The translations under genes were made by a program, and so were the position numbers. From Costertonia aggregata (lineage in GTDB: Bacteria; Bacteroidota; Bacteroidia; Flavobacteriales; Flavobacteriaceae): a stretch of 64,000 nt of DNA. Under the pieces are notes generated by a model, which searched no databases, was not told the origin of the DNA, and saw nothing but the letters and a program-made list of their open reading frames with translations. Of this stretch, positions 18,648-34,286 are shown piece after piece (positions within the stretch are counted from its first letter, which is position 1; each line of letters starts with the position of its first letter). The DNA lies in contig NZ_CP058595.1 of NCBI RefSeq assembly GCF_013402795.1, positions 841,501 to 905,500 of the forward strand, read 5' to 3'.

Positions 18648-18754
18648 ATGGTGATTGTTTAGTGATTGATTGATGTATAGCGCATACTATATAATAGTAG
18701 ACTACACCAACGGCAAATCTGTTACACTATATATCTTAAAATAATGTTAAAAAA

Positions 18755-18964
18755 TTAGTTTCTCATTTTTCTATAGATAAAATAAAACAGTCCGGCCACA
18801 AGAATATATGGGATTGCCATTAGATAAACAATACCGTTATTGATGCCTTCAGCAGTTTTACCGCCTTCCTCGCTTTCCAGTACAGCACGGCACATAGCGC
18901 ACTGTGCCTCTACCGACTGGGAGAAAAGCAAAACAAGCAACACAACAAATAAAATCTTTTTCAT
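18755..18964 (-). CDS. Small membrane protein with an N-terminal CxxC
   Basis: A 69-residue protein with a signal peptide (MKKILFVVLLVLLFSQSVEA) is followed at once by QCAMCRAVLES, a CxxC placed right after the likely cleavage site. A single transmembrane helix (about 44-64) and a basic tail (YRKMRN) complete it. I do not recognise a named family, but the sequence looks like a genuine, conserved small envelope protein. It is the last of four same-strand genes (thioredoxin-like, SCO, DUF420, this), 39 bases after DUF420, next to cytochrome oxidase genes. A role in copper or thiol handling during oxidase assembly is inference from the CxxC and the context. Confidence 0.75.
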   Translation of the reverse strand: MKKILFVVLLVLLFSQSVEAQCAMCRAVLESEEGGKTAEGINNGIVYLMAIPYILVAGLFYFIYRKMRN

Positions 18965-19003
18965 TTCTTAAACTACTTAGCCCAACGATCGCAAAGACGT
19001 GTA

Positions 19004-25879: not shown

Positions 25880-26302
25880 CTATTTTAATACACTTTTGGA
25901 TGCAAAAAACAGTTTAACCACAACCGCCCCGGCAAATGCACCTAAACTATTTGCCAGTGCATCGTAGACATCCCCGCTTCTATTCGGAAAAAAATTATAT
26001 TGCAAAATTTCAATAACCATACCATATGTTATGGCAAATAACAGGCTTATCATCAAAACAGGTAATATTTTGTTTCTTTTATCAAAAAATCCCAAAAAAA
26101 AGAAAAAACCCAAAAATGTTGCCACAAAATAAAATATGAAATGGGCGATTTTATCTTTGTGCGGTATATTCAAATTTAGCCATCCACCACCGCTGTTGGT
26201 CAATGTAGCCAAGCTAAGATAGGTTACGGTCGCCATCCAAGAAACAAAAGCAATGCCGGATGTTGCTTTTTTAAGCACCGACCAATGCTTTGTAGTCGGC
26301 AT
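25880..26302 (-). CDS. VanZ-family membrane protein
   Basis: The 140-residue protein has four predicted helices: about 15-32, then [40 protein letters not shown], and a C-terminal helix with [20 protein letters not shown]. The IAHF and [20 protein letters not shown] segments are VanZ marks. Function in most bacteria is unknown; in vanA clusters VanZ gives low-level teicoplanin resistance, which I do not infer here. ATG 26302 overlaps the 3' end of gcvH by 32 bases. A GTG at 26278, overlapping the gcvH stop by eight bases, is a possible alternative start. It is clearly in the gcvH transcript. Confidence 0.85.
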
Positions 26303-26651
26303 CGGTCAACAAACTTTCCACTTCGGACAAATCGCTAATCTTGATTTTTATCATCCAGCCTTCACCATAAGGGTCACTGTTCACTTTTTCGGGCTCGTCC
26401 TCCAAGGCCTCATTGAACTCCACGATTTCACCAGTAAGGGGCAAAAACAGGTCTGAAACGGTTTTTACCGCTTCGACCGTACCAAAAACCTCATCTTTGT
26501 CCAAAGTCTCGTCCAAGGTCTCAACTTCAACATAAACAATGTCACCAAGCTCACCTTGGGCAAAATCGGTTATGCCTACCGTGGCCATGTCGCCCTCTAT
26601 ACTTACCCACTCGTGATCTTTGGTGTACTTTAATTCTGATGGTATGTTCAT
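26271..26651 (-). CDS. gcvH: Glycine cleavage system H protein
   Basis: GcvH carries a lipoyl group that shuttles the aminomethyl intermediate between the P, T and L proteins of glycine cleavage. The 126-residue protein begins [17 protein letters not shown], contains [18 protein letters not shown], and holds the lipoylated lysine at Lys63 in [13 protein letters not shown]. The length is normal. No gcvP or gcvT is nearby. A promoter with both elements lies just upstream (26674-26704). The VanZ gene overlaps its end, so gcvH-VanZ and possibly tonB form one unit. Confidence 0.96.
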
Positions 26652-26673: not shown

Positions 26674-26704
26674 CAAATGTAGATTATTCCATGGCGATTT
26701 TCAA
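26674..26704 (-). promoter_or_regulatory. gcvH: Promoter of gcvH
   Basis: On the minus strand TTG (26702-26704) precedes TACATTTG (26674-26681) by 20 bases, matching the Bacteroidota consensus. It lies 23 bases before the gcvH ATG and marks where the repeat-rich spacer ends. Confidence 0.6.
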
Positions 26705-26742
26705 GAAAAACCTGAGTTGAAGTTGAGATGGAAAATGTTTTG

Positions 26743-27069
26743 GATTTCTCAATCGATATGATGCTTCTCGTTTTGAAATGACCCTAGTTACGCTCCGTCA
26801 TTTTGAACCGAATGCAATGAGTGTGAGAAATCTATAGTATAGATGCCGCAAATTGCTCAATGGCAATATAGATTTCTCGTCGTTTCACTCCGTCGAAATG
26901 ACTTTTTCAGATTTCTTAATCGTCCCGAAAATTCGGGACCCATTTGAAAAGACTATCGTTTTGTTCTGTCAATTCGAACCTTTCGACTGCGCTCAAGATA
27001 GGCTCCGTTGAAAAATCTTAGAGTCTTTGGATTTCTCACTCGATGCGATGCATCTCATTTCGAAATGAC
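26743..27069. repeat. Array of six related repeats in the sprA-gcvH spacer
   Basis: This 435-base spacer (26652-27086) holds no plausible gene. It contains diverged copies of one unit whose two ends are GATTTCTC and GAAATGAC. Three clear direct copies are at 26743-26782, 26871-26902 and 27030-27069. An inverted copy is at 26797-26832. A degenerate direct copy at 26910-26953 contains a perfect 18-base palindrome (26922-26939, GTCCCGAAAATTCGGGAC). A degenerate inverted copy is at 26968-27017. Units are about 32-50 bases long with variable middles. The pattern resembles dispersed intergenic palindromic repeats that I recall as common in Flavobacteriaceae. Function is unknown; folding in the sprA 3' transcript is possible. 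Confidence 0.75.
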
Positions 27070-27086
27070 AAGAAGTATACAAGATA

Positions 27087-30000
27087 TCAATTCCCAAAAT
27101 TATAACGCAACGTAAAGCCCGTATTGATAGTAGTCTGCGGAAAGGCCGTAGAAACCGCAAATTCCGAAAAGGCATGATCGTAGAAAAAGAGTGCGTTCAG
27201 GTTTTTGCTCAAAGCGTAATCTGCCGTAAATTTAAACGAGAACAGGTTCTGCCCCGAGGTCACTTGGTTGTTATCGATATCCAAATTGCGTATTATGGTA
27301 ATGTTATCCCTAAGGGTCAAATCGGCCTTTAGGTTTAAATCCCCTTTTAAGCGCTGTTTTTGCCCCCCGATATTGGTAACCAACTTTACGTCCTTAAAGC
27401 GATAGCCCAGACCTACAGTATATTCTTTACCGTTTATCTCGGTCATTAGGCTATTGTCTAAACTCAGGGAGAGCACCCTATCCGTTCGTACTTCGGCCAA
27501 AACGCTCAACGAGTTTTTCATTTCAAAATCTACGCGCACCAATGGGTTAAAGGCGTCGTTCAAAGTTACCGTGTTCAAAATCAGGTCTGGTAACAAATCT
27601 TCATTTTCAGTATTAAAATTTCCGTTTTCTTTTTCCAAATTGGTCTGAAAAGAGTTGATGCTGTATGCCGCCCGATACCCATGGCTTAATGAAAATCGTT
27701 TGAATTTTTTCTTGAACCATTTATTTTTCATCAACCCTGTATATTTTACATTCCAGTTAGGGATAGGGATATCCCGAAACGCATCCAAATTTACCCGGTT
27801 CACATCTTGGCCTGTATAGGCTGCGAAGAAAGCCGGTAATAAAACATCTTGCTGGGTTTTCCCGTAACGTTGGGGAAAATTATCATCGTCTAAAGTTCCT
27901 GGAACCTGTCCCCTATCGGAGACCAACCTGTTGGCGATTATAATTCTATTTTGTTTGAATGTCTCGAAAAGTTCCGAATTGAATTCATCACTTTTCTTAA
28001 AAGCAGTACCTATCATCATCGTCGAGATACTAAAGTTCCCAATATTATTGCCCAATAGTTGATTGTACTCTCCATTTTCAATATTAAAACTCTCCTGATA
28101 ACTATCGGAATATTGCCTATCGGCAGAAAGATCTATGGTCAAATCTTTTGTAGGTTGAGCCGTTGCCGTCAGATTTAATATTTTATTGGTACGTTCAATA
28201 TATTGTTCATTAAACCTTGAGAATTCAGTAAGCCAACCATTACGAGCCGCTTCAAAACGCACATCGGCCTGACTACCAAAAACAAATCCCAACGAGGGTC
28301 TTGTTGTACCGATAAAACCAACACTTTGCGTGTATCCAGGCAATACCTTACCATTGTTCTCGCTATAGTTGATATTTAAACGTTTTACCATAGTAACAAC
28401 ATCTATAACCGTATTGTACAACCCGCTGGTCTTCCCTTTTGGTTTCTTTGCATCCTCCTTGGTATTGCCCGCTTTATCCCTTCGCACGGGTTGTCTGGCA
28501 TTGGCCTCTTTCCCCGAACGTTTTTTTAGCCCCAATACATCATAAAATTTTTGCAGGGTCAAGTTTGCGGTCAAGTTATGTGTATTTGCATTCTGTATCG
28601 TATTAATTTGCGCTCCAGGTCCTAATTCCTCTTCGGCAACCTCTGCAATAGCATCACCGCCACGTTGCCAATCAAAATTGCTGGTGTACGAGTATTGCGC
28701 ATTTATAAAGTCCAACGCCGGTATTTTATTGAACGGTAAATCATAGTTCAACTGCATTTGTTGGGCGTGCCGATTGGGCTCGCCAATATCAAAGAAACCG
28801 TCCCATAAATCCAAAGCCTCGTTTATTCCCGATTCATCATTGCCTTCCTCGTTAAAATAGTTACGGACAATATTATTGTTACTCGCCGTTAAATTTAATC
28901 GCAGGGATTTGCTCAAACTATAGTTTACGGCATATTGCCAATTGAACAGGTAGTTGCGTTGCTGCAATAAAGGTAGTTCCAATCTATCAACACCTGGCTC
29001 CAATACGTCTCTAAAACGTTGTTGGTTGAAAGAGCGGTTTAAGTTTGAATTGACCGATACACTGGTTGGCAATAGATTAAAATTCAAATCTTTTAACCAT
29101 TTCCAATACTTACCTGTAAAAAGGGAGTCTTTTTTTGCAAAAGGGGCTACTTCAACAGGTTTAAAATTATGATTGTACACAAACCCGGTCACTACGTTTT
29201 GATCGCGCAGACTGGCTATCTCAAAGTCCCGATGATCCGTTTCGTTATATGAATAGTTAAAAGTAAAGTTCTCGATATCGTAAAAATTGGCATCGGCCTC
29301 CTCACCTCGCTCCTTTCTTACCCCAATCAGGTTGATACTTGTACGCTTGGTATAATCCTCTGCTTGTTCTTGTATGGTTTCCGCATCTTCAGGTGTGTCC
29401 GCCGCCGCTATTCTATCTTCCAATCGTAAATCATCATATACGGGATCAAACTCGGGTGTAATGATCTGCTCGGCAATACCATAGTTAAAAGGTATGGTGA
29501 TTCCCCATTTTTTTGGCAATAACTGTCCCACATTCACATTCGTGACCACATCATAGGAGATAGCATCTTCCCGAGCCCTTTCATTGGGCATTTGATCTAT
29601 GCCACCAAACCCTGAAGTGCTTTTACTCCCCGTTGCCGATACGTTGGCAAAATCGGCCATGTTCGCGTCAATAGCGGCAACTGCGGCCCATCCCCCATTA
29701 TTGTCCAAACCTGCCAAACGCAATTCATTGAACCAGACCTCGCCACGGGCGGGAATATTATCCGTATTCTTGATACCTACCATCATTCCGCGAATACTTC
29801 CCAAGGATGGGTTACCGCGAATACCAATCCTGTGCGCCCCAAGAGTTCTTGGCGCAAATTCCGGTACCGGAACCGGCTCTCCATCAATAATATCATAATA
29901 GGTCACCTCACTCAATGTCTGGTTGGCTATCCCTAGGGATTTTACTTTTTTCAAGGCATCCAACGATATGTTGATCTCATTGACATCGGGCCAAATTTCC

Positions 30001-33000
30001 TCGGCAGTCAGTGCTCCAAAAGGGGTAAACTGCAATGGCAGTTCTATTTGATAAAAATTCTCGGAGAAGTCCGTTCCTATCCGTAGGAAACCTACCAAGG
30101 GCGTATCATCATCGGAATAGTCGGTATCAATTATCTTTTCAGCATGCATGAACATTCTAAGGCGTTCATATTGCCTCATATCAATATTCACATTTTTGAA
30201 CACCCCTCTTGAATCTTCGGATTCCAAATTTTCCACGACAAAAGAAAGGGACTGTTCATTTTGACGGATTATCGTGTTGTTGTTGTTCAACCGTTCCCGA
30301 ACCACGCCTGGTGGAAGCACATATGGGATAGGTGTTCTATTTTCGTTTTCTTCAATATTGACCGCATTTACGTCGGTCGTTGTGTTATCATCGGAAGGGT
30401 CGGCATCAATACTGGCATCTTGTAACGTACGGGTATAGGCACGCCAGTCGCCACGAACCAAATCTAAGGTCGCAAAACGAAGCACGGTAGGCCCTGTGAA
30501 ACCTGTTAAATACATACGCATAAAACTAATGGACCTAAAATCAGTAATGCCACCGATAGCATCGGTAAAATCGGTCAACGGAATTTTATATTGAATCCAA
30601 CGCCTATTTAAACTCCTACCATCGGGAACTTCCCCGGCCGGCACCTGTTCGGTTTCCAAGATATCGGTAACATATTGATCGTTAATCGTAGTATTCGGTT
30701 TGATCTGGATACGATATTCGTAATAACTGTTTACCGTATTCATGGTCAAATCCCTATCTACATCCTCTACATCGGGCAAGGTGGTCGAGCCTCTATCGGT
30801 CTGCGTTACTTCGACCGGGGAGTTTCCTTCCAAGTTGTTATAATCCAAGTAACGTTCCAAAACGTTACCTTCCCTTGCCAGATAATATTGATAATTGTCC
30901 AAGGCAGGGTCGAGGCCGGTATTGTTGGAGTACACTGCGCCCTCTTCGGCATCAGGCAGTCCGTCAAAACCGATATCCTGCAAATCCCTGCTGGCCTCAT
31001 CGGCATCAAATGCATATACTAACGATTGTGTTGACGGTGTTTCCCCCCAAGAAGTCGATGCTACCAAATCGTTACTGTTTACTCCGGGAAGGCCATTTTC
31101 GTACTGCTTTCTACCATCTTTCAAGATATCCTCGGAGATATTGCCCAGATTTATGACCAATTCTCCCGGCGAATTTGTAATTCCATCAACATAGGGGTCC
31201 ATTACCCAAAACTGAACAAACTCTACGTTGGATTGTTCAAAATTGGTACTGCTCAAAGGCCGCATAATCCCTGCCCATTTGTTTTCCGGTACCTCGGTAT
31301 CAAAATTAGGGTTGTTGTTGTATGGCCCTTTTACATTAGGGTAATAATTGATGTTCAAGGTATTCTGGGCCTGGGTCTGCCCCTGAGCCACATCTTGATT
31401 GAACAATCTATTGATAAAAATCTGGCGGGTCTCGTTGGACGACACGTCACTATCCGAAACTCCCGAAGGCCTTTGGTTTCGGCTATAAAAGATACGGTCA
31501 ATACTATACCACGCCATTTTTGCACGGCCATAACCATTTAACAAATTATCCGGATCTGTTGGCGAACTCCCTGACAATTGTCCACCCGGTGCAAACTCCA
31601 ATGGTGTACTCGCCAAGGTCCACCCTAAAAAAGAACGGATATCTATAAGTGCCTGTGCACCTTCAAAATCATCCAAGTATGTTGTGGTTTCCCCGTTAAA
31701 ATCCGCATTTTTGGGAGAATTGGGCTTTAAAAAGGCCACTTCCCCACGAACGGAAACATTAGAGGGTACATCTGTATCAATATTTGGGAGTTTGTTCGCC
31801 AAACGGGTCAAGAAAGGTACTTCAGTAGAAAAATTACCGTTTAGGCCAAAAATGGTATTGTTCACAGGTTCTATACCAAAATTGGATTTTTGGGTCAAAG
31901 GTCGCTCGTTAAGGTTCAATAAAGTAGCTCCCAATAGAAAGTTCTCATTGACCCTGTGCTCGACATTGATTCCCGTAAATCGCCTGGTCTGTTGTCCGAA
32001 GACCGCATTATTTTCTACGGATATATTTATGGGCGTATTCGAGGCCTCTAAACTGGGGTCTAAAAGCTGTACGGTTCCCGCCTGATAATTTACCGTGTAA
32101 TCAATACCTTCTTGCAATTGCCTACCACCGGCCGTAACACGAACCGACCCTCTTGGAACATTGAACGCCCCAATGGGAATACCATTGTTCCCCTCGGATT
32201 TATAACGCCCGGTCAATTGAAACCTATTTTTTTCGGCATCCTGCAACGAAGCCGCCTTGGTCTTCGCATACATGTTACGGAAGACGTATTTTTGTTGATT
32301 CTCATTATAACCTTGGTCATTCTCAACATTATAAACACCACCACCCAATAAATCAAACAGATACTCCCCGAAAGGCTCCACTTTAGTAAAAATAATACGC
32401 CCGGATTGCGTGTCTACCGTCCTGCCAGGAACAAAATCAAAAAAACCGTCACCGCCCGGCTGCACATCATTGTAAACATTTAAACGGTCCAAATTAAAAA
32501 CGTCCAAAAGAATTCGTTCTTCCAGTGGTTTTCCATTCGGTCCATTTGAACCTGCTGGAAAAGGCTCTACCGGAGTAATATAATTTCTTGGCGTGGGGTC
32601 CGAGTACAAGATGTTCAATTTAAAATCCTCTTGACTCAATCTAAATGCGCCCGTTGCATAGATGTTCTTCATCATCAAATCCCAAATAGGATCGGTAACA
32701 TTGGTAATGTTACTTTTGAGTAATTTTAGCACCAACGTATTGTTGCTAACCACTGGATTAACACCTTGAGATACCGTGGTGGCATCCAAACCGCCATTGG
32801 CGAACTCCCCAACTTGAAAAACCTGACCATTGAAAATATACTGATAGGCGACGGCCAAAACCTCATCGTTGCTCAATCTTTGGTTCAATGAAATATAACC
32901 TAACTGTGTATCAAATTGATAATCCCTATTGGGTTCCAGCTTTCTAGCATTTTCCAAAAAGGCATAATCAAACCCTTGTTGCGGTGTATAACCAGGTATA

Positions 33001-34286
33001 TTGAACCCTGCCTCCACAGTTGCAATATCACGTATTGAAGAAGTCAATGCTCCCCCATTGGCAATTAAAGCAGGATCGTAATTGTTCGCATTATTCCTTG
33101 GGAGATCATTTGGGCCATTAGGATTTGTATTGAAAAAAGTTCCTGTCACCCCTTCTAGCCTACCTGCCCTTGTGGTTCTTTCCAGAGGACTAGGGTTTAG
33201 AACATCAAACTCACCTAAATCTTGAAGGGCCACGATATTCCTAACGTTTGTTGTTTGCTGGCTCCTATTGGTCACCCAAACCTCTATTCTGGTAATTTGC
33301 ACCTGACTTTGTACAAAGGGGTATTTCTCTAGCGCACTATCGTAATTATCCCTAAAATATTGCGATAAAAAAAAGTGTTTGTCCTCGTCGTAGTCCAAAG
33401 CGGTCAGGGAAAAATCATTTAAAGTACCACCACCCTGTGCGACTACCGTGTTACTTTGAGAGCGCTGTTCGGAAAAGACCGCCGTTACCGTGGTTCTCCC
33501 AAACTGCAATTGTGTCTTTACCCCAAAAAGGCTTTGCGCTCCCTGTATCAAAGAGCTGTTCAAGGGCATATTCACGTTACCCACTTCAATCTTACGTAAA
33601 ATATCGTCCTCGGTAGGGGTATAGTCCAATTTCACCAAATTCTGAAAATCAAAAGTGGCCTCGGTATCATATCCGGCGGTTACTTTTAATCGTTCCCCGA
33701 TGCTGCCCAACATACTCAAACTTATACGCTGATCAAAATCAAAGGAGGGTACGGTTCTGTTTCTTATAGACCTGGCAGGGTTGTCGTTGCGCTGAATAAT
33801 CACACCTAAGTCCATAGCAACCGAACCTTGGGGGATTACCTCAATAGTGTTACCCCCAAAAACCGACTCAAAGAAATTATTGTTGATATAAAAGTTAGGC
33901 AACAAATTTTTACGCGCCTCTTCACTTCCCTCTTTTTTACCTGTGTATGCGTCGATTTTTTCTTTGAAATAGTCTTTCATAGACTCCTTTCGCACCAAAT
34001 CACGATACTGTTGGGGGGTTAAAATTATAGGATAGTTTATATCAAAATCACCAACACTCTCCGTATAGATATATCTATCCAGTTTTGGATCATAAGTATA
34101 TTTGGAAACTACGCTCTGCGGGTTTTGTAACTTTAATTTTCCAAGGGAGTAACCTGTTTTAACAGAATCTTGCCCTTTCTCATTGGTTTCTTGGGCCAAA
34201 GAAGTATTTGTGACCGCAAAAAAAACAATGAAAGAGAAAAGAAACTTAAATGTTGGTTTAAGAATTGATTTAGCCCCTGTTTTCAA
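27087..34286 (-). CDS. sprA: SprA, type IX secretion system outer-membrane translocon
   Basis: SprA (Sov in Porphyromonas) is the giant 36-strand outer-membrane barrel through which T9SS cargo leaves the cell. At 2399 residues it has the expected size. It has a signal peptide (about 1-31, FKFLFSFIVFFAVTNTSLAQ) and family segments such as GNTIEVIPQGSVAMDLGVII, DFDQRISLSMLGSIGERLKV, YLDDFEGAQALIDIRSFLGW and, in the C-terminal half, WFNELRLAGLDNNGGWAAVA. The start is TTG at 34284-34286, since no upstream ATG or GTG precedes the signal peptide in frame. It begins five bases after the ruvA stop, so it is translated from the maeB-ruvA transcript or one starting in ruvA. Surface adhesins and secreted enzymes would be its cargo; none is encoded here. 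Confidence 0.96.
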   Translation of the reverse strand: MKTGAKSILKPTFKFLFSFIVFFAVTNTSLAQETNEKGQDSVKTGYSLGKLKLQNPQSVVSKYTYDPKLDRYIYTESVGDFDINYPIILTPQQYRDLVRKESMKDYFKEKIDAYTGKKEGSEEARKNLLPNFYINNNFFESVFGGNTIEVIPQGSVAMDLGVIIQRNDNPARSIRNRTVPSFDFDQRISLSMLGSIGERLKVTAGYDTEATFDFQNLVKLDYTPTEDDILRKIEVGNVNMPLNSSLIQGAQSLFGVKTQLQFGRTTVTAVFSEQRSQSNTVVAQGGGTLNDFSLTALDYDEDKHFFLSQYFRDNYDSALEKYPFVQSQVQITRIEVWVTNRSQQTTNVRNIVALQDLGEFDVLNPSPLERTTRAGRLEGVTGTFFNTNPNGPNDLPRNNANNYDPALIANGGALTSSIRDIATVEAGFNIPGYTPQQGFDYAFLENARKLEPNRDYQFDTQLGYISLNQRLSNDEVLAVAYQYIFNGQVFQVGEFANGGLDATTVSQGVNPVVSNNTLVLKLLKSNITNVTDPIWDLMMKNIYATGAFRLSQEDFKLNILYSDPTPRNYITPVEPFPAGSNGPNGKPLEERILLDVFNLDRLNVYNDVQPGGDGFFDFVPGRTVDTQSGRIIFTKVEPFGEYLFDLLGGGVYNVENDQGYNENQQKYVFRNMYAKTKAASLQDAEKNRFQLTGRYKSEGNNGIPIGAFNVPRGSVRVTAGGRQLQEGIDYTVNYQAGTVQLLDPSLEASNTPINISVENNAVFGQQTRRFTGINVEHRVNENFLLGATLLNLNERPLTQKSNFGIEPVNNTIFGLNGNFSTEVPFLTRLANKLPNIDTDVPSNVSVRGEVAFLKPNSPKNADFNGETTTYLDDFEGAQALIDIRSFLGWTLASTPLEFAPGGQLSGSSPTDPDNLLNGYGRAKMAWYSIDRIFYSRNQRPSGVSDSDVSSNETRQIFINRLFNQDVAQGQTQAQNTLNINYYPNVKGPYNNNPNFDTEVPENKWAGIMRPLSSTNFEQSNVEFVQFWVMDPYVDGITNSPGELVINLGNISEDILKDGRKQYENGLPGVNSNDLVASTSWGETPSTQSLVYAFDADEASRDLQDIGFDGLPDAEEGAVYSNNTGLDPALDNYQYYLAREGNVLERYLDYNNLEGNSPVEVTQTDRGSTTLPDVEDVDRDLTMNTVNSYYEYRIQIKPNTTINDQYVTDILETEQVPAGEVPDGRSLNRRWIQYKIPLTDFTDAIGGITDFRSISFMRMYLTGFTGPTVLRFATLDLVRGDWRAYTRTLQDASIDADPSDDNTTTDVNAVNIEENENRTPIPYVLPPGVVRERLNNNNTIIRQNEQSLSFVVENLESEDSRGVFKNVNIDMRQYERLRMFMHAEKIIDTDYSDDDTPLVGFLRIGTDFSENFYQIELPLQFTPFGALTAEEIWPDVNEINISLDALKKVKSLGIANQTLSEVTYYDIIDGEPVPVPEFAPRTLGAHRIGIRGNPSLGSIRGMMVGIKNTDNIPARGEVWFNELRLAGLDNNGGWAAVAAIDANMADFANVSATGSKSTSGFGGIDQMPNERAREDAISYDVVTNVNVGQLLPKKWGITIPFNYGIAEQIITPEFDPVYDDLRLEDRIAAADTPEDAETIQEQAEDYTKRTSINLIGVRKERGEEADANFYDIENFTFNYSYNETDHRDFEIASLRDQNVVTGFVYNHNFKPVEVAPFAKKDSLFTGKYWKWLKDLNFNLLPTSVSVNSNLNRSFNQQRFRDVLEPGVDRLELPLLQQRNYLFNWQYAVNYSLSKSLRLNLTASNNNIVRNYFNEEGNDESGINEALDLWDGFFDIGEPNRHAQQMQLNYDLPFNKIPALDFINAQYSYTSNFDWQRGGDAIAEVAEEELGPGAQINTIQNANTHNLTANLTLQKFYDVLGLKKRSGKEANARQPVRRDKAGNTKEDAKKPKGKTSGLYNTVIDVVTMVKRLNINYSENNGKVLPGYTQSVGFIGTTRPSLGFVFGSQADVRFEAARNGWLTEFSRFNEQYIERTNKILNLTATAQPTKDLTIDLSADRQYSDSYQESFNIENGEYNQLLGNNIGNFSISTMMIGTAFKKSDEFNSELFETFKQNRIIIANRLVSDRGQVPGTLDDDNFPQRYGKTQQDVLLPAFFAAYTGQDVNRVNLDAFRDIPIPNWNVKYTGLMKNKWFKKKFKRFSLSHGYRAAYSINSFQTNLEKENGNFNTENEDLLPDLILNTVTLNDAFNPLVRVDFEMKNSLSVLAEVRTDRVLSLSLDNSLMTEINGKEYTVGLGYRFKDVKLVTNIGGQKQRLKGDLNLKADLTLRDNITIIRNLDIDNNQVTSGQNLFSFKFTADYALSKNLNALFFYDHAFSEFAVSTAFPQTTINTGFTLRYNFGN

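Follow-up and report, generated by a model that had tools for sequence, protein, structure and literature searches.

A nuclease-less array of CGTC-like repeats between sprA and gcvH of Costertonia aggregata and its putative mobilisation by a stand-alone GIY-YIG nuclease

The window, that is, the whole stretch of 64,000 nucleotides of the Costertonia aggregata genome that was analysed, contains an array of short repeats in the gap between sprA and gcvH. The features of this gap and its two neighbours, whose names are those used in the original prediction, are as follows.

26271..26651, minus strand: gcvH, the downstream neighbour of the array
26674..26681, minus strand: TACATTTG, between the array and gcvH, likely the gcvH promoter
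26743..26782, plus strand: unit 1, of the 40-nt subtype, with intact ends and a CCA tail on the other strand
26797..26832, minus strand: unit 2, of the 36-nt subtype; the preceding base makes its tag CGTC
26871..26902, plus strand: unit 3, of the 32-nt subtype, with a BLAST match to the nuclease array at C1:1250602-1251342
26910..26953, plus strand: unit 4, degenerate, 44 nt, with an inner hairpin GTCCCGAA-AA-TTCGGGAC at 26922-26939
26968..27017, minus strand: unit 5, degenerate, 50 nt, containing TTTCGACTGCGCTCAAGAT
27030..27069, plus strand: unit 6, of the 40-nt subtype, with intact ends; it holds a 14-base palindrome at 27055-27068
27087..34286, minus strand: sprA, the upstream neighbour, transcribed towards the array

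Inspection of the sequence bore out much of what had first been described. Six related units lie at 26743-27069 in the order of orientation plus, minus, plus, plus, minus, plus, with the common ends GATTTCTC and GAAATGAC around variable middles, and the array adjoins sprA, its last unit stopping 17 nt before the sprA stop codon at 27087. The perfect 18-base palindrome that had been assigned to one unit is absent: GTCCCGAAAATTCGGGAC at 26922 consists of 8-base arms round AA, and the sole perfect palindrome of at least 10 bases in 26720-27090 is the 14-base one in unit 6. The gap had also been called the only long non-coding one in the window. At 435 nt it is indeed the longest between open reading frames taken as genes, but another of 356 nt lies at 18648-19003. 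On its gcvH side, TACATTTG fits TAnnTTTG, the consensus of the Bacteroidota -7 box, and is present in all seven relatives' gaps inspected (those longer than 110 nt).

An intact unit is, as predicted from its letters, an imperfect hairpin of the form 5'-GTC-AT-NNN-GA-(variable inner stem-loop)-GA-N'N'N'-AT-C, with the GTC tag at one end. In units of the window type, five outer pairs after the tag are followed by a GA/GA mismatch (TC/TC) and then by the inner stem. The exact pattern GATTTCTCN{5,35}GAAATGAC occurs three times in the window, always within the array, and the genome-wide count proposed in the original prediction gave 19 copies in the 3.91-Mb genome against none for the reversed control; the array is therefore not a product of chance. 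Of the 19 copies, 12 overlap no open reading frame of at least 100 aa and one overlaps a 492-aa frame by a single base. The other six overlap frames of 108–115 aa, which were judged to be spurious; five of these six lie in one frame built of repeats. Allowing up to two mismatches, the TTTCGACTGCGCTCAAGAT of unit 5 is found in four places in the genome. A single 38-nt unit (L005, C1:905638-905675) is located 138 nt past the window end. Elsewhere (L016–L019, C1:3608717-3615006), serial head-to-head pairs of units of about 80 nt, REPIN-like and spaced at about 170 nt, occur at two places approximately 6 kb apart. A BLAST search of the gap against its own genome (E of 0.001 or better) returned, besides the gap itself, only four units at C1:1250602-1251342, where nine exact units in alternating orientation surround a GIY-YIG gene of 99 aa (L022).

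In a comparison with relatives, the two genes were adjacent in 30 of 30 loci examined (the window and 29 relatives, to which the gap comparison is confined; gcvH was matched in 57 other genomes). Including the sprA stop codon, the gap measures 438 nt in the window, 18–148 nt in 27 of the 29 relatives, 257 nt in one, and 407 nt in one. Window-type units were found in none of the 29 gaps by a relaxed motif, and the window motif was likewise absent from the 29 relatives' gcvH loci. Judged from these sequences, the array is a lineage-specific insertion between sprA and gcvH. In the relative of another genus with the 407-nt gap (L186), an inverted pair formed by another repeat, GTCAGTTCGA..TCGAGAAC, was recognised by eye; repeats of this type surround a different GIY-YIG gene of the C. 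aggregata genome, so that the sprA–gcvH gap appears to have been invaded twice, independently.

The original prediction had offered two natures for the array, a mobile REP-like element or an RNA structure by which the sprA mRNA is terminated or stabilised. The RNA role would suit an array that starts 17 nt after the sprA stop codon, and RNA of the sprA strand folds moderately better than shuffled sequences do (z of −2.6, with 1 of 100 shuffles as good). However, the units are missing from the gap in every one of the 29 relatives, including the 27 with gaps of at most 148 nt, and there is one terminator-like site, on the strand opposite to sprA. With an array unconserved at this place, a lone terminator-like site on the wrong strand, and a moderate fold, the RNA role is unsupported, and we consider it very improbable. 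The terminator-like hairpin, followed by a T run, is formed from unit 3 (26879-26902, plus strand) and is opposite to both sprA and gcvH. A mobile REP-like element, on the other hand, is supported by the dispersed copies, by the absence of units from all 29 relatives' gaps, and by hairpin covariation in short units. Lying without a nuclease gene upstream of the likely gcvH promoter, the window copy most likely has no specific role for sprA or gcvH.

If the array is mobile, the question arises of the enzyme that moves it. An ordinary REP/BIME array would be moved by a RAYT-type Y1 tyrosine transposase, and the alternating inverted layout and the short, tagged, imperfect palindromes are as in the RAYT-linked REPs described in the part of PMC3733652 available to us. 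The original prediction had called for a search for such a transposase. The sole Y1_Tnp match in the genome (L020, C1:3490189-3490548), however, has one internal TAG and no unit beside it, the search around it giving one lone GATTTCTC; the tag of the window units, moreover, is GTC-A and not GTAG. No association of window-type units with a tyrosine transposase was found in this genome, and a RAYT origin was rejected because no RAYT gene is flanked by units there. We regard it as extremely improbable.

GIY-YIG genes present a different picture. The C. aggregata genome has eight GIY-YIG matches, three of which are small stand-alone genes (L021, L022, and L023), and each of them has its own type of repeat, either on its flanks or in an array around it. 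At locus L021 (C1:763271-766486), a perfect inverted repeat of 26 nt encloses the gene and is accompanied by additional partial copies, and at locus L023 (C1:2982994-2986212) the gene lies inside an array of another repeat type, all six copies of which are at that locus. Near the five longer matches, a search with the window-type motif found only isolated half-motifs. The protein consists of a single GIY-YIG domain of about 95 aa and is a predicted nuclease. The L022 protein scores 66.3 bits against PF01541 (cut-off of 22.6), and the conserved residues are Y8 (89/89), Y19, G21, R29, and E69 (90/90), and H33 (89/90), among which the catalytic ones are those of the family. The nearest solved chains, 1zg2 and 1ywl of UPF0213 proteins, are weak matches (E of 1e-4 and 7e-4). 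No NCBIfam model exceeded its cut-off for the three stand-alone proteins, and PADLOC gave weak partial matches for one of the three. In the fuller arrays, a stand-alone gene of this kind with conserved catalytic residues is situated between the repeats; an in-frame stop interrupts it at 5 of 80 named loci.

The association of repeats with GIY-YIG genes holds within Bacteroidota and at several Proteobacterial loci. Matches to the three stand-alone proteins are present in 63 of 99 genomes (C. aggregata included). In a motif-free sample of 40 loci from other genomes, read together with as much as 7 kb of flanking sequence on either side and taken roughly by rank among the matches listed (the sample leaves aside the window genome's own loci, some matches on short contigs, near-duplicates, and one match in an 874-aa frame), local repeats covered 40.4% of bases up to 300 nt from the gene, 14.9% at 300–600 nt, and 1.5–5.4% in each farther bin. 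A repeat pair spanning the gene was found at 30 of the 40 loci (none at the other 10), compared to 22 of 383 other open reading frames of 60–200 codons and 4.7% of 4010 random intervals; under a stricter score, the counts were 24 of 40 nucleases and 10 of 383 frames. In a second, named sample (the best 80 of at least 284 loci from public genomes), a repeat pair of one sort or another spans the gene at 75 loci and is missing at 5. Here, the window motif occurs within about 600 nt of the gene at 30 of 30 loci of close homologues (at least 69% identity) and 37 of 50 loci of distant ones, while the reversed motif does not occur at any of the 80. The density of the motif falls about 80-fold in the close set, from 6.28 per kb at 0–300 nt to 0.08 at 1.5–2.5 kb, and from 3.22 to 0.09 per kb in the distant set over the same distances. 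The two samples overlap: L123 and L080 are on one contig, and the former was excluded from the hairpin scan described below, while L108/L076 and L149/L093, apparently on the same contigs, were both kept.

The subtypes seen in the window recur in such nuclease arrays, the 40-nt subtype in L104, L105, and L106 and the 36-nt subtype in L106, L107, L118, and L126; the arrays sharing them belong to Allomuricauda, strain GF1, Croceivirga, and others. Furthermore, similarity of the flanks tracks similarity of the nucleases across 43 loci (r of 0.337, reached in none of 5000 permutations, whose maximum was 0.154); the syntenic pairs L069/L073 and L059/L064 were left out of this test, and other syntenic pairs may remain in it. 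At the level of whole genomes, all 11 genomes with at least three units have a GIY-YIG match, against 52 of the other 88 (p of 0.006). Among the 67 genomes of at least 2.5 Mb, the counts are 11 of 11 and 44 of 56, which is not significant (p of 0.19), and this correlation, lost once genomes smaller than 2.5 Mb are removed, was set aside. One genome, G033, has 14 exact units and no match to the window-type nuclease subfamily, with one weaker match to the broader profile; units can thus be present without that nuclease. Seven units of this genome share one orientation at G033:C9:74883-75872, with a spacing of about 138 nt in most cases. The draft contigs of L063, L078, and L079 stop 0.1–2.2 kb from their GIY-YIG genes, as if the arrays break assemblies.

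The predicted hairpin was studied by covariation in 210 distinct units. The search pattern leaves one stem pair free on both sides and fixes the other end positions; this freely varying pair is T-A in 189 units, C-G in 21, and mixed in none. Among the 34 units of 25 nt, 27 have a complementary first inner pair, compared to a mean of 17.0 and a maximum of 25 in 2000 shuffles; among the 24 units of 26 nt, 21 do so (mean of 12.8, maximum of 18). In the 31- and 37-nt units, one pair beats all 500 shuffles (17/19 and 14/16, respectively), while no pair did so in the 24-, 32-, 33-, 36-, and 40-nt units; in those of 32 nt, the first inner pair is complementary in 4 of 15, below the shuffle mean of 7.4. 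Covariation across these sequences thus supports a stem in the short units. When units 1, 2, 3, 4, and 6 of the window were folded as DNA (unit 2 being taken as 26799-26834), only unit 4 folded better than its shuffles. Decay of the copy, together with its short and interrupted stems, could account for this, but the result lends the hairpin no positive support. A motif-free scan of 119 loci sought any hairpin with a closing pair, a bulge of 2 nt, and a stem of 5 bp and imposed no other requirement. Of the 260 tags found at most 400 nt from the genes, GTCA was the commonest, with 393 hairpins near (94,500 bases) and 100 far (635,261 bases), and GTCA-tagged hairpins were present at 93 of the 119 loci. 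The runners-up were AAAT by count (130 near, 318 far) and GAGA by ratio among the 15 commonest tags (103 near, 40 far). GTAG, which is absent from the window units, is not among these 15.

A tag of this kind has been described in the class of CGTC REPs, for which the part of the 2013 description available to us gives a CGTC or TGTC tag, a stem starting with a complementary A and T, an uninterrupted stem of 8–9 bp with a loop of 4–5 nt, mostly a CCA tail, and apparently no dedicated transposase (Di Nocera et al. 2013, PMC3733652). Neisseria dRS3 and Rickettsia RPE-4/RPE-6 are included in the class, and Sinorhizobium meliloti and Azospirillum lipoferum are on its species list (PMC3733652, in the same part). 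The window units resemble these repeats in several respects, in some of them only in part. First, they carry a GTC tag, which is CGTC in unit 2, TGTC in units 5 and 6, and GGTC or AGTC in the other three, and hence CGTC or TGTC in half of them. Second, the stem opens with a complementary A and T in four of the six, the degenerate units 4 and 5 being the exceptions; this start is built into the window motif used at the 80 named loci. Third, a CCA tail is present in two of the six (units 1 and 6), and the units are likewise intergenic, are arranged in inverted pairs, and, in this genome, lack a RAYT. In contrast to CGTC REPs, window-type units have a stem broken by the GA/GA mismatch, longer and variable middles, and large alternating arrays, with a GIY-YIG gene inside or beside the arrays where the available part of PMC3733652 has no dedicated enzyme. 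Because window-type units lack the uninterrupted stem of 8–9 bp with its 4–5 nt loop, the window array is called CGTC-like here and is not filed as a CGTC REP.

The repeats at Proteobacterial nuclease loci, by comparison, fit the published description, and their units do have the uninterrupted 8–9 bp stem. Plasmid loci were collected by tblastn with the GIY-YIG protein of the window genome, which gave 11 records, 8 of which were opened. A fixed rule found CGTC-type hairpins beside the gene at five of these eight. In the Rhizobiaceae loci L214–L218, units such as CGTCATCCTCGGGCTTGACCCGAGGATCCA adjoin the gene, on both sides in L215–L218 and upstream in L214, and elsewhere within 10 kb only one such unit was found, 1.6 kb away in L215. 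L219 has no CGTC hairpin, and L220 has a doubtful match at the gene end only. In L221, from Planktothrix, repeats of the GTCATTCTGAG type are visible by eye on both sides and were missed by the rule. The neighbours of this Planktothrix plasmid gene are an MmeI-type restriction gene on one side and a DISARM helicase gene on the other.

When the search was repeated with the protein of S. meliloti, 45 records were obtained, including the first 11, and 10 new loci were opened. The rule finds flanking units at five of them (Azospirillum, Shinella PSBB067, Neisseria, Aeromonas, and Photobacterium). The rule as run scored 7 of 10; its two Sphingobium hits lie inside the gene, with no flanking hit within 600 nt, and were not counted. 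By eye, a CGTCACCCCGGG variant was recognised on both sides in Sphingobium L226 and a CCTC variant about 190 nt downstream in Rhizobium L224, while the Novosphingobium and Salinivibrio loci gave no rule hit. Across the 10 new loci, 26 hairpins lie within 600 nt of the gene and 15 beyond 1.2 kb (2.17 versus 0.20 per kb), the near ones including 14 from Neisseria and the 2 in-gene hits, and the far ones 8 from the far part of the Photobacterium locus. The Neisseria locus weighs little, as its repeats also occur 4 kb from the gene. By the fixed rule, CGTC-tagged REPs thus adjoin a GIY-YIG nuclease at 10 of 18 plasmid loci, the other 8 having no countable hairpin. The GIY-YIG loci with CGTC-type hairpins include those of S. 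meliloti and A. lipoferum, both of which are on the 2013 list.

Closely related genomes provided information on mobility. In A. lipoferum, sufB and sufC are 617 nt apart and enclose the nuclease gene together with a repeat pair on either side of it; in A. ramasamyi, A. oryzae, and strain B510 (about 95–97% identical), the sufB–sufC gaps are 87–129 nt and lack the element. Presence and absence at orthologous sites is seen both here and in the sprA–gcvH gap. In S. meliloti Ak57, an element lies between gltA and lpxB, and in Sinorhizobium K101 (96% identical) this site has no gene and keeps two repeat remnants, a difference that could reflect either gain or loss. No target-site duplication was readable at the empty Azospirillum and Sinorhizobium sites. 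Between two Algibacter loci, the array differs by about 115 nt, and the outer flanks of Arenibacter L114 and of Tenacibaculum L121 and L131 are not shared with their congeners' loci. Two Flavivirga copies have matches of at least 60 nt to each other only over the gene.

Some of these observations could also be read the other way round, with the nuclease gene as a parasite and the repeats as its landing sites. GIY-YIG enzymes include homing endonucleases, and a free-standing one may cut the repeats and be copied in by break repair, the repeats themselves spreading by slippage, recombination, or another transposase. The two Flavivirga copies, alike only over the gene, are consistent with such homing, as are the K101 site with its remnants and no gene and the many units of G033 without a window-type nuclease match; a nuclease merely homing into repeats would leave much the same footprint as one that moves them. 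On the other hand, more similar nucleases have more similar flanking repeats across genera, and the relatives of A. lipoferum lack its gene and repeat pairs in their suf operon as a single block, both of which are as expected if gene and repeats move together. Homing is thus a real but rather unlikely alternative.

Our preferred reading, which we hold to be probably correct, is that a stand-alone GIY-YIG nuclease mobilised the CGTC-like palindromic repeats of the window array, a BIME-like cluster that is partly decayed and has no nuclease gene. The array would have been inserted between sprA and gcvH in this lineage. The nuclease may recognise the tagged hairpin, extruded or single-stranded, and nick it at its GTC tag; the end thus released or broken would then be copied or joined elsewhere. 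Units and unit pairs would spread in trans, and an array with its gene in cis. The association of gene and repeats is shown, whereas cleavage of the hairpin and movement of the repeats by the nuclease are inferred. Spread in trans would be rare or old, given that the L023 subtype and that of S. meliloti (four of four copies in 3.72 Mb) are confined to their nuclease loci. RAYT transposases are thought to mobilise GTAG REPs, and the GIY-YIG nuclease would play a parallel role by means of an unrelated enzyme.

Among other known systems, the arrays resemble the REPtrons, in which GTAG REPs or REPINs accompany a RAYT gene: tagged imperfect palindromes alternate round a small nuclease gene in both, and both have dispersed copies without the gene. 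They differ in the tag, GTC-A instead of GTAG, and in the enzyme, a GIY-YIG domain instead of an HUH Y1 transposase. With PF01541 and the chains 1zg2 and 1ywl, the protein shares a single GIY-YIG domain and conserved residues, the matches to the two chains being weak. The PATEs of Haloquadratum are similar as small, transposase-free mobile repeats with palindromes, but they resemble IS605-type transposons, from which some are apparently derived, according to the accessible part of PMC3119063. Among the matches listed in a literature search, titles and the beginnings of abstracts held no link of GIY-YIG genes to REP-like repeats, and the terms GIY-YIG, nuclease, and RAYT do not occur in the accessible part of a 2025 survey of REPs (PMC12306157).

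Collectively, these results lead us to favour, with somewhat less assurance than for the window array itself, a more general proposal: stand-alone GIY-YIG nucleases may be dedicated mobilisers of a CGTC-type REP superfamily in Bacteroidota, Proteobacteria, and Cyanobacteria (the last from one locus, by eye), forming a second, independently evolved system of a nuclease plus a tagged hairpin, parallel to RAYT and GTAG REPs. REPs are widespread bacterial repeats, and the mobiliser of the CGTC class was reported missing in 2013, as stated in the available part of PMC3733652; if the proposal is true, GIY-YIG mobilisers fill that gap. The tight link to a nuclease of 95 aa makes the question of the CGTC mobiliser testable biochemically. 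It would, moreover, point to a function for a widespread gene, matched in 63 of the 99 genomes, that is annotated just as "GIY-YIG nuclease family protein," and may help to explain why intergenic repeats of the GTCAT type are common to unrelated phyla.
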